This document shows positions 51,409-60,987 of a stretch of DNA of 64,000 nucleotides, in pieces. Both the position numbers and the translations under genes were made by a program. Position 1 is the first letter of the stretch. Every line of letters starts with the position of its first letter. This DNA is from Thioclava electrotropha (lineage in GTDB: Bacteria; Pseudomonadota; Alphaproteobacteria; Rhodobacterales; Rhodobacteraceae): contig NZ_CP053562.1 of assembly GCF_002085925.2 (NCBI RefSeq), positions 2,548,501 to 2,612,500 of the forward strand, given 5' to 3'. Under the pieces are notes generated by a model that was given only the letters and a program-made list of their open reading frames with translations, did no database searches and was not told the DNA's origin.

Positions 51409-51675
51409 ATGAAGCGAACGAGATTCACGGACGAGCAGATCATCGGCATCCTGGCCGAGCACGAGGCAGGCGCGAAGTGCGCGGACCTGTGCCGCAAGCA
51501 CGGCATGTCGGAAGGGACCTTCTATAACTGGAAGGCGAAGTTCGGCGGCATGACGGTGCCGGAGGCAAAGCGGCTGAAGACGCTCGAAGACGAGAACGCC
51601 AAGCTGAAGAAGCTGCTGGCCGAGCAGATGCTGGACTTGGCGGCGATGAAGGAACTGGTTTCAAAAAAGTGGTGA
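51409..51675 (+). CDS. IS3-family transposase OrfA
   Basis: An 88-residue DNA-binding protein that recognises the element's ends: helix-turn-helix ([20 protein letters not shown] ... [15 protein letters not shown]) and a leucine-zipper-like helix ([19 protein letters not shown]). The heptamer AAAAAAG at 51663-51669 near the end allows -1 frameshifting into orfB, producing the OrfAB transposase. Confidence 0.93.
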
Positions 51676-57880: not shown

Positions 57881-58087
57881 CTATTCCGTTTTATTACAGA
57901 TAAACCCGCATCCATATATGTGAACAGGCATGCAATTTTGACCCCGTAGCGGGGTAATCGGCATCGAAAAGTGCCCCCCCCCCCCTTTACACTGATGTGG
58001 ATGGTGCTCCCGAGGTCATCGGGGTGCACAGTGTGGGATGTTGGTTGTAGAGACGATTGCGAAGATCCGGCGGGCGTATTTTCAGGA

Positions 58088-58128
58088 TTGAGGCATTGAG
58101 CTGCCACTGGTCCGAGGCCAATGCCGAA
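58088..58128 (+). repeat. Palindromic micro-element copy 1, in istA
   Basis: Core GCCACTGGTCCGAG at 58103-58116 followed by GCCAATGCC. It interrupts the segment between FQD and KSIKQ of istA and shifts the frame by +2. Confidence 0.75.
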
Positions 58129-58668
58129 CAAGTCGATCAAGCAGATTTGCCGAGAGCTGCGGGCCTCGCGGAATACGGTGCGCAAGGTAATCCGGTCAGG
58201 GGCAACCGAACTGACCTACGAGCGCACGATCCAGCCGCTACCGAAGATCGGCCCTGGACGAGTAAGCTCAATGACATGCTGGCGGCTAACACCCGAAAGC
58301 CGAAGCGTGAACGGCTGACCCTCATCCGGATCTTCGAGGAACTGCGCGCCCGCGGTTACGACGGCGGCTATGATGCCGTCCGACGCTACGCCGCTTCGTG
58401 GAACAGGGAGGAACGGGAGTCGTCGGCTGCCGCGTATGTCCCGCTGACCTTCGCCCCGGGCGAGGCCTACCAGTTTGACTGGAGCCATGAGATTGTGTGG
58501 TGATCGACGGGGTGACGACCACGGTAAAGGTTGCCCACGTTCGCCTGTGTCACAGCCGGATGCTATTCGTCCGGGCCTATCCTCGCGAGACGTGAGGCAG
58601 ATGGTCTTCGACGCCCACGACAAGGCTTTCGCCTTCTTCGGCGGGACCTGCACACGCGGGATCTACGA

Positions 58669-58712
58669 CAGCGGGAATTGTCCGCCATTGGTCCGAGGAC
58701 AATGGACGCGAA
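58669..58712 (+). repeat. Palindromic micro-element copy 2, in istA
   Basis: Core GCCATTGGTCCGAG at 58684-58697; arms CCATTG and CAATGG enclose the loop. It lies between the IYD and AVDTIF codons of istA. Confidence 0.8.
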
Positions 58713-58917
58713 GCCGGCGGTGGACACGATCTTCGTCGGCCGCGATCGCGCCTACAATCGACGCTTTCAACAGATGTGCGGGCATTACCTGGTCGATCCA
58801 GTTGCCAGCACCCCGGCCTCGAGCTGGGAGAAAGGACAGGTCGAGAACCAGGTCGGGGTCGTGCGGCGGCGGTTCTTCGTCCCACGGCCCAAGTTCAAAA
58901 GCTACGCCGAGTTCAAT

Positions 58918-58957
58918 AACCCGCCTTGTTGCGCCATTGGTCCGAGTGACAATGGCG
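58918..58957 (+). repeat. Palindromic micro-element copy 3, in istA
   Basis: Core GCCATTGGTCCGAG at 58933-58946. Perfect 9-bp arms GCGCCATTG (58931-58939) and CAATGGCGC enclose the loop. It splits YAEFN from LEDRC. Confidence 0.8.
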
Positions 58958-59103
58958 CGTGCTTGAAGATCGCTGCGTGGCCTGGGCAAAGGCCAATCTC
59001 CATCAGGAGCTCAGGGACCAGACGAACTGGGACGCATTTCAGGCCGAGCGCGAGAGCCTCGAGCCCTATGTCGGCCCGTTCGATGGCTTTCACGCCGTGC
59101 CTG

Positions 59104-59140
59104 CCGCTCGACCATTGTTCTCGAACCAATGGCGAACAAG
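59104..59140 (-). repeat. Palindromic micro-element copy 4, in istA, inverted
   Basis: Core on the minus strand GCCATTGGTTCGAG, 59120-59133. The arms CCATTG and CAATGG flank a TTCTCGAA centre, almost fully self-complementary. It separates HAVPA from VSLSKTC. Confidence 0.78.
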
Positions 59141-59687
59141 GTCTCGCTGTCCAAGACCTGCCTCGTGCGGTTCGACAATAATCGATACTCAGTCGACGCA
59201 CGCGCCGTCGGACGACCGGTCGAGATCCGCGCCTATGCCGAGCGCATCGAGTTCTGGCAAGACGGCAAGGTCGTTGGCCAGCACGAGCGCGCCTTCGGAC
59301 GCAACAAGGACGTCTACAACCCTCTGCACTACATCCCTGTTCTTGCGCGCAAACCGGGCGCCTTGCGCAACGCCGCGCCCTTCAAGGACTGGGAGCTGCC
59401 GCCCGCGATAAAGCGTGTTCAGCGCAAGCTCGGGAAGGTGCCGAACGGTGATCGTCAGATGGTCCAGATCCTGAGCATGATCCCCACCGATGGGTTGGAC
59501 GCGGTGGAAGCTGCCTGTTCGGAGGCGCTGATGGAAGGGGCTCCGGCAGCGGCCGTCGTGCTGAACATCTTGGCCCGGCATCGTGAACCACCACCGCCAC
59601 TGACAATCACCACACCGGATGCGCTGCGTCTGACCTGCGAACCAGTGGCCGACTGCAAACGCTACGACAGTCTGAGGAGACCAAACC

Positions 59688-60450
59688 ATGGAAAGATCAC
59701 AGGTGCTGGACGCGATGGGCCAGCTGAAGCTCTATGGAATGAAGGCCGCTTACGATGAGATCATCACCACGGCCGTGAAGCGGCAGCACGAGCCACAGCA
59801 GATCGTCGGTGATCTGTTGAACGCCCAAATCAGCGAGGTGAGGCGTGAGTCGCCACTGGTTCGAGGCCACGCCGAACGGCACGCTCGATCAAGTATCAGC
59901 TGACCATCGCCCGACTGCCTTTGGCAAAGGAAATCGACGAGTTCACCTTTGAGGACACGCCGGTGAACGAGACGCTGGTGCGCGACCTCGCAACAGGTGA
60001 CTTCCTCGATCAACAGCGCAACGTCGTGCTGATCGGCGGCACTGGGACCGGAAAGTCGCATCTCGCCGTCAGTATTGCACGAGCCTGCATAAGACGTGGC
60101 AAGCGCGGCCGGTTCTTCAATGTTGTGGACTTGGTGAACAAGCTCGATGCCGAGGCCCGCGCCGATCGCCAGGGTGCACTGCCGATCTGCTCTGCCGCCT
60201 CGACTTCCTGATCCTCGACGAGTTGGGCTACCTACCATTCGCTCAGACCGGCGGGCAGCTCCTCTTCCATCTCATAAGCCGCCTCTACGAGCGCACCTCG
60301 ATTATCGTGACGACCAACCTCGACTTCGGAGAGTGGCCCTCGGTCTTCGGCGATGCGAAGATGACGACCGCGCTCCTCGACCGACTTACCCACCATTGCG
60401 ATATCGTCGAAACCGGCAATGAGAGCTGGCGCTTCAAGACCCGCGAATGA
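59688..60450 (+). pseudogene. istB: Broken IS21 helper ATPase gene istB
   Basis: The ATG at 59688 begins MERSQVLDAMGQLKLYGMKA. After SEV a palindromic insertion (about 59839-59880) shifts the frame. The ATPase part continues in the next frame with Walker [15 protein letters not shown] missing G near 60180 shifts the frame again before [14 protein letters not shown]. The final [20 protein letters not shown] is intact. The gene cannot give a working IstB. Confidence 0.9.
59839..59880 (+). repeat. Palindromic micro-element copy 5, in istB
   Basis: Core GCCACTGGTTCGAG at 59852-59865, second arm degraded (GGCCACGCC). It splits istB after the NAQISE codons. Confidence 0.75.
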
Positions 60451-60577
60451 CCGAAGACCCGCTGGCCCGATACGGCTGCGCGGTGTGATAGCTACACCGC
60501 ATCGGGCCAGCTCTCGTCGTGCCAAAGGGGGTCAATTTTGGGCGCCGATTGGGGGGCAAAATTGCGTGCCGATTGAC

Positions 60578-60604
60578 AGTCACTCAGACCAATGGCGTGA
60601 CATG
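60578..60604 (-). repeat. Palindromic micro-element copy 6, at the IS21 right edge, inverted
   Basis: Core on the minus strand GCCATTGGTCTGAG, 60583-60596, between the end of IS21 (60578) and the IS3-family remnant that starts near 60609. It has 13 of 14 core bases in common with copies 2 and 3. Confidence 0.7.
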
Positions 60605-60608
60605 GCTC

Positions 60609-60987
60609 GTCGTCACCACTTTTTTGAAACCAGTTCCTTCATAGCCGCCAAGTCCAGAATCTGCTCGGCCAGCAGCTTCTTCAGCTTGGCGTTCTCGTCT
60701 TCGAGCGTCTTCAGCCGCTTTGCCTCCGGAACCGTCATGCCGCCGAACTTCGCCTTCCAGTTATAGAAAGTCCCTTCCGACATGCCGTGCTTGCGGCACA
60801 GGTCCGAGCACTTCGCGCCTGCCTCGTGTTCGGCTAGGATACCAATGATCCGGTTCCGATGCGCTTACGCGGCCCCAATGGGGCCACGATCCCATTTCCA
60901 ATCAGTGAATCTCGTTCGCTTCATCGTCCGCCCTCAAGTTGGGTCGGACTCTAATCGATGGTGGAGGAAAAATCCCGTGGCAGGTCA
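60609..60987 (-). mobile_element. Remnant of a second IS3-family copy, same element as in manC
   Basis: The inverted terminal repeat and orfA match 51346-51680 with few changes; the end at 60987 is TGACCTGCCAC on the minus strand. The similarity stops near 60609, so orfB and the other end are missing. A palindromic insert interrupts the start of orfA. Confidence 0.9.
60613..60924 (-). pseudogene. Broken orfA of the IS3-family remnant
   Basis: It begins MKRTRFTD as in the intact copy, then about 50 bp (60852-60904) replace the DEQ codons, bringing in a stop (WKWDRGPIGAA*). The normal sequence resumes at [11 protein letters not shown] and ends SKKW*. The insert holds the palindrome GGCCCCAATGGGGCC at 60871-60885. 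Confidence 0.88.

Follow-up and report, generated by a model that had tools for sequence, protein, structure and literature searches.

The window, i.e., the whole stretch of 64,000 nucleotides of Thioclava electrotropha DNA that was analysed, contains a broken IS21-family element whose genes are repeatedly interrupted at a 14-mer, GCCAYTGGTYYGAG. What are these inserts, and by what route might they have entered a transposon? An earlier note made from the sequence had counted six copies of the 14-mer, four in one orientation and two inverted, and the six exact copies were found again at 58103+, 58684+, 58933+, 59120-, 59852+ and 60583-. Searching with the GCCAYTGGTYYGAG reverse-complement pattern at up to one mismatch returned the same six (expected 0.22, maximum of 2 in 100 shuffles), while up to two mismatches gave 12 matches, compared with 3.51 expected and a maximum of 8 in shuffles. 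The features of the locus are as follows.

57919..60578, + strand: IS21-family element of the ISPkr1 group, broken and insert-bearing; plasmid copies with annotated istA/istB match 98% of the query at up to 77.7% DNA identity; ends placed by eye from the alignment
58038..59758, + strand: istA, interrupted by inserts 1-4 and small indels; aligned to istA of L025; dN/dS 0.08 vs L025; 1 stop codon
59688..60450, + strand: istB, interrupted by insert 5; aligned to istB of L025; dN/dS 0.03 vs L025
58088..58129, + strand: hairpin 1, family A type 1, 42 nt, replacing about 4 nt; core at 58103; net +38; same site filled in L027, L092 and L045
58671..58710, + strand: hairpin 2, family A type 1, 40 nt, replacing ACATG at the IstA YDN/MKTAVD motif; core at 58684; net +35; same site used in other IS21 subfamilies
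58919..58960, + strand: hairpin 3, family A type 1, about 42 nt; core at 58933; net +38
59106..59147, - strand: hairpin 4, family A type 1, 42 nt, inverted; core at 59120 on the - strand; net +38
59838..59877, + strand: hairpin 5, family A type 1, 40 nt, in istB; core at 59852; net +35
60579..60610, - strand: hairpin 6, family A, with its 3' arm shortened at the IS21 right end, in the IS3 fragment; core at 60583; flanks match those in L212 and L233
60604..60960 (bounds by eye), - strand: IS3-family orfA fragment adjoining hairpin 6; the ORF at 60613-60783 (-) reads nearly as orfA of the IS3 copy at 51409-51675 (by eye)

The element was aligned with insert-free relatives, i.e., IS21 copies of the ISPkr1 group that are carried by plasmids of Paracoccus, Sulfitobacter and Pseudosulfitobacter, in four of which istA and istB are both annotated (L025, L026, L029 and L155) and in one istB only (L028). 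The earlier note had proposed an alignment with intact relatives; in this one the borders of the inserts coincide with the motif. Both genes are indeed interrupted at five of the six 14-mers, with net gains of +38, +35, +38, +38 and +35 nt; four of these inserts lie in istA and one in istB, every one on a 14-mer. The window copy also has small indels (-1, +2, +2 and -1) and one stop codon. The sixth 14-mer had been described as abutting the right terminus; it proves to be outside the IS21 (right end at 60578) and inside the adjoining IS3 fragment, and on two other contigs (L212 and L233) a hairpin follows the same IS3 sequence, AAAAAGTGGTGAYG, as hairpin 6. A Leisingera IS21 copy (L027) has inserts 1 and 2 in common with the window copy.

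The 14-mer marks a hairpin, RY-GA-arm-GCCAYTGGTYYGA-arm'-CGA-RY, in which the loop is constant and the arms differ between copies but pair within each copy. These family-A units are about 38-44 nt long, and their fold, as read from the sequence contexts, leads inward from RY/RY pairs through a GA/GA mismatch and a stem of about 10 bp to an apical GCC-AYT-GGT with a YYGA bulge. Fixed arms (CCATTG and CAATGG), as first proposed, were not borne out, arm sequences varying from copy to copy. A text rule on the 3' arm separated type 1 from type 2 elements (L090, which had come out as type 1, was reassigned by hand to type 2 once its context had been read). Arm pairing was stronger than in permuted sets for both types, with mean scores of 20.2 vs 12.1 for 48 distinct type 1 elements and 27.0 vs 23.6 for 20 of type 2 (0/2000 as high in each case), and also for the six window hairpins alone (18.8 vs 10.4; 2/2000 as high). 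In the MAFFT alignment A1, from which chance 14-mers with unpaired arms had been removed by eye (L001, L037, L041, L042, L046, L049-L051, L053 and L055-L057), the covariation score was 0.151 vs 0.096, with 0/500 shuffles as high; the count of further pair types was not unusual (162/500 shuffles). Later counts leave out most of those chance 14-mers, L013, L026, the near-duplicates L043 and L059, and duplicate window loci. Of the 61 type 1 entries with both ends recognised, 51 have complementary outer dinucleotides (GC/GC 18, GT/AC 15, AT/AT 15 and AC/GT 3), which therefore do not represent a direct repeat. No Rfam family covering the hairpin was found in 17 sources at E values up to 1.

The earlier note had proposed a search for the 14-mer in this genome and its relatives, and the same hairpin does recur there: in other IS copies of the genome, and in 137 of the 295 family genomes sampled. 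Within the genus, the 14-mer gave 57 exact matches in 16 genomes, not all of them hairpins, compared with 11 for the reversed pattern, and was present in 14 of the 16, several of which are drafts. A covariance model (R1) gave eight matches with E<1e-5 in the genome itself. Judged by alignment or by eye, every one of the eight is within an IS copy or adjoins one: the window has six, an IS3 (C1:2064272, by eye) the seventh and an IS5 (C1:1846447, aligned) the eighth. The 137 genomes each carry at least one family-A copy at E 1e-4 in a scan with strict filters and 18 candidates scored per genome. Copy numbers are low, with 7-17 in ten genomes rescanned with 150 candidates (the seven richest of the 295 and three others). 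In a scan of a genome contig collection, 116 of the 120 hairpin-bearing contigs among the matches listed were from Rhodobacterales; the other four are titled WS1, Hoeflea, Hyphomonadaceae and Proteobacteria isolate, and look like MAG contigs. A viral contig collection yielded 15 stretches with the hairpin core (7 + 8; L277-L291).

The main niche of type 1 hairpins is the transposase genes of insertion sequences. When every sixth of 122 exact-core elements was sampled, the last (L275) being left out, 16 of the 20 type 1 flanks matched transposase models, one matched aroA and three had no match at E 0.001. The scan took one ORF piece beside each element, picked by codon score. Over 66 type 1 and 122 exact-core (TGTCC...GGACA) elements, in tallies that overlap and count only elements with a match, the most-matched models were transposases of IS3, IS21, IS5, IS1182, IS256, IS66, IS30 and IS110 (some IS families being named by eye); among the best 25 families listed in each scan, models that were neither transposase nor general helix-turn-helix had 1-2 members each (e.g., GpA terminase, serS and EPSP synthase). 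One hairpin lies in the open frame of a phage terminase (GpA) gene in L081 and L195. Type 2 accounts for 24 of 90 family-A contexts; most of its neighbours are housekeeping genes, and some are transposases. These 24 elements served as a check on the method: they gave many single housekeeping families and a few transposases, so that contexts other than IS are detectable. By eye, most type 2 copies (e.g., L106, L116 and L144) are inside terminator-like intergenic repeats of the form GGGG...GGGGCAGACAGCCCC; such hairpins may be source copies or occupy another niche.

Several insertions can accumulate in one transposon; for example, an IS3-like copy in G140 has five hairpin cores in about 1 kb. 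All internal inserts of at least 15 nt were listed for 13 IS copies, picked for carrying hairpins or lacking annotation, and after 5 of 36 had been dropped as beyond the IS ends (L095 1151; L078 1, 1583, 1616 and 1656), 31 of 31 read as hairpins. With families named by eye, 21 belonged to family A (one with a variant loop; net lengths 34-39 nt), five to B, four to D and one to C. Family B has the form CCCTCTCGG-arm-loop-arm'-CTGCCGGGCA, about 41 nt, with 56 matches in 21 of 120 genomes and 0 for the reversed control; that search of 120 genomes found none in the window's own genome. Its arms pair within elements (34 distinct, 5.32 vs 2.85; 0/2000 as high), and transposase models lead among 30 flanks scanned, 3 of 33 references having been left out as repeats. 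In the IS copies with family B that were compared (L030, L031, L027, L078 and L095), little target was lost. Family D, a double hairpin (CACGC..GCGTGCC..GGCACG) seen in L030, L031 and L092, occupies the same IS21 site in two lineages; allowing up to two mismatches, it gave 10 matches in 5 of 120 genomes. Families B and D strike the same IS copies as family A. Family C was seen once, in an IS5 of the window's own genome (L002, about 1640-1760), as an insert whose stem is GAAAACGATCC/GGATCGTTTTC; a family-A hairpin with a changed loop is nearby.

Comparison by eye with 11 empty sites indicated that 4-6 target nucleotides are replaced, and no target duplication was seen in these alignments. The ends read RYG(A/T)G...CG(A/C)RY at 45 distinct sites, an end rule from which 43 of the 122 elements depart. 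The flanks of those 45 sites share little beyond a purine before (96%) and a G after (91%) the insertion. Orientation is even, with 23 sense and 22 antisense among the 45 of 66 type 1 elements whose coding side was assigned with confidence. Two possible determinants of site choice were rejected, i.e., target palindromes (mean percentile 0.52 at 17 sites of families A, B and D) and homology between arm and target (p 0.34, 11 sites).

The same sites have been used repeatedly. The 122 elements fall into 71 site clusters, of which 18 span at least two genera; one IS3 site holds eight arm variants in nine loci. At the IstA YDN/MKTAVD site a single 5' arm is common to nine clustered loci, in which the IstA stretches alongside are about 31-95% like the reference; this shared arm could reflect transfer between copies. 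At IS21 site 1 the filled copies, i.e., the window copy, L027 and L092, do not form one clade when the whole IS is considered (AU p 1e-48), whereas local trees did not reject one origin there (p 0.15) or at site 2 (p 0.38). In IS5, L121, L126 and L100 are filled at one site, but L121 is nearest to an empty copy, L147 (89%), and resembles the other two at only 77% (p 1.7e-8), in a tree most of whose branches are weakly supported; at IS5 site B one clade was not rejected (p 0.23). For the family B and D sites in L030 and L031, one clade was rejected even locally (p 0.001 and 3e-5). As judged from these phylogenies, separate IS lineages have been struck at the same nucleotide.

What do these results say about the origin of the inserts? 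We are moderately confident that they are very small (about 38-44 nt), non-autonomous mobile hairpins with their main niche in the IS of Rhodobacterales, probably moving as a folded single strand with the aid of a Rhodobacterales factor. The earlier note had suggested a mobile micro-palindrome, REP- or MITE-like, rather than random indels: mobility is upheld by the insert-free relatives, the borders at the motif and the copies elsewhere, but a strictly REP- or MITE-like identity is not. The folded strand would be either ssDNA or an RNA from which DNA is then made. Such an intermediate is suggested because G-T mismatches in the stems are commoner than A-C mismatches on the element strand (13:3 and 9:1), although in type 1 stems G-A mismatches equal G-T in number (13 each), which counts against a single-strand reading. 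A Rhodobacterales factor would then recognise the constant loop and insert the hairpin, and residence inside an IS would let it spread whenever the IS that carries it is duplicated, in cis or in trans. As a candidate helper, a reverse transcriptase was rejected (RVT_1 in 4 of 16 genus genomes and 0 in the window's own).

Spread of this kind can be seen at two places. In Maritimibacter fusiformis, four contigs have 1439 bp at 100% identity, hairpin included (IS256-like by eye; two start at a contig end), and in Leisingera aquimarina a hairpin-bearing repeat is present at four loci with 98.9-99.8% identity. To judge by these near-identical copies, hairpin-bearing IS do multiply, either in cis or via helper copies in trans.

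A different view is that insertion is random and can occur anywhere, the hairpins being visible in IS only as these are dead, neutral DNA, with selection purging the rest. The window copy and several others do contain stops or small indels, and type 2 copies are at another tolerant-looking place, the terminator-like intergenic repeats. However, against L025 the insert-bearing IS21 copies (window, L027, L030 and L031) have dN/dS of 0.08-0.09 in istA and 0.03-0.05 in istB, similar to those of insert-free L026, L028, L029 and L155 (0.05-0.08 and 0.02-0.03; L154 gave 0.14 and 0.12). As an average over the whole divergence, which leaves the insertions undated, these ratios show no long neutral phase in the insert-bearing IS21, yet the window copy took five insertions. 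A short neutral phase is not timed by dN/dS, which averages the path since divergence, and to that extent the ratios leave room for random insertion. By our estimate, though, random insertion at such a rate would have produced many more copies than 7-17 per genome, and recurrent exact sites do not fit it. We regard this explanation as unlikely.

Alternatively, the hairpins might be marks rather than selfish passengers: a process akin to host defence, in which a Rhodobacterales factor would write hairpins of several families at fixed sites into IS and so disable them. Repeat-induced mutation in fungi offers a loose analogue of a host process directed against transposons. Such a process fits most of the same facts as a mobile hairpin, i.e., targets that are mostly IS and belong to unrelated IS families, several insertions per copy (five cores each in the IS3-like copy and the window copy), a niche common to several unrelated hairpin families, and 116 of the 120 contigs, among the matches listed, coming from one order. 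Against it, the hairpin-bearing IS of M. fusiformis and L. aquimarina still multiply, and we think it rather improbable.

Movement of a REP or REPIN by a RAYT or other Y1 transposase would account for a short palindrome, dispersed copies and single-strand asymmetry. The earlier note had pointed to carrier genomes as the place to look for such an enzyme, and there the search came out mostly negative: 13 of the 16 same-genus genomes, a set that includes the window's own, are without Y1, so that Y1_Tnp occurs in three, though 14 of the 16 (several drafts) have the 14-mer. A Y1 helper absent from most genomes of the genus was rejected. Three of the four Y1 matches are in 151-aa frames, which we take to be the size of IS200, and by eye no family-A hairpin was noticed beside the Y1 gene of the window's own genome in the part of L065 viewed. 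Type 1 hairpins are inside IS genes (16 of 20 flanks transposase) and not extragenic, although type 2 are mostly extragenic, and the ends are without a GTAG/CGTC tag. We therefore hold a REP/REPIN origin to be very unlikely. The likeness is that both are dispersed palindromes of 20-40 nt, and compensatory hairpin changes have been reported for REPINs (in the accessible part of PMC3116915). Relative to REP/RAYT systems, as described in the accessible part of PMC3733652, family A differs in being without Y1 in most genomes, in residing in IS genes, in having a constant loop and a variable stem, and in the missing tag.

The small dispersed repeats of cyanobacteria (Elhai et al. 2008) are compared here by way of descriptions in papers citing them. 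Like family A they are very small, and according to the portions of PMC2884548 and PMC3116915 that name them they are thought to be mobile; they differ in length, given there as around 20 bp, and in their hosts.

Rickettsia palindromic elements are palindromic units inside the genes of an alphaproteobacterium, MITEs are flanked by target duplications, and integron attC sites resemble the hairpin, as we read it, in being recognised as folded single strands with variable stems; by eye, no attC core boxes were noticed in the hairpin. MITEs and family A, as we read it, have in common that they are non-autonomous and mobile and contain inverted repeats, but family A is shorter and was without target duplication at the 11 sites read. 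In the available excerpts, MITEs measure about 100 to 400 bp and end in inverted repeats (PMC3116915), and the Rickettsia elements are given as 105-146 bp (PMC2229807), a range below which family A falls at 38-44 nt (net 34-39). Unlike the Rickettsia elements, family A does not keep the frame and is mostly in IS genes.

An RNA-level element selected in transposase genes (an mRNA bypass hairpin, tiny intron or attenuator) would suit the RNA-like fold with its GA/GA mismatch and covariation, the hot site after the IS3 A6G stretch and an ALIL pseudoknot match in L061 (676-792) that ends at the hairpin edge, but is scarcely credible given the 23 sense and 22 antisense insertions and family-A net lengths of 34-39 nt, which keep no single frame. 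A programmed reading frame was likewise rejected: the net lengths are 2 mod 3 throughout the window copy, but lengths of 34, 36, 37 and 39 occur in others.

If the mobile-hairpin reading is true, these units of about 40 nt, which have variable self-complementary arms and mostly reside within transposons, would rank with the smallest mobile elements known. It would imply that a well-studied bacterial order has a new enzyme, or some other new process, for insertion, together with a layer of parasites of parasites or, alternatively, a form of transposon silencing; with several families sharing one niche, the enzyme should be searchable. The earlier note knew of no described family with this core, and none came up here: in a search that most of the subscription literature lay outside, the core strings occurred in no bacterial paper, the matches being to human or mouse genes by title. 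Nor, among the matches listed, did titles and the opening lines of abstracts on IS-nested or Rhodobacterales palindromes contain a description of such an element.

A further observation concerns IS3, in which a hot site lies just after an A-run (L162, L166, L175, L177, L182, L209, L241, L252 and L267). This A-run is presumably the place of the orfA/orfB frameshift, and hairpins inserted there might alter frameshifting.
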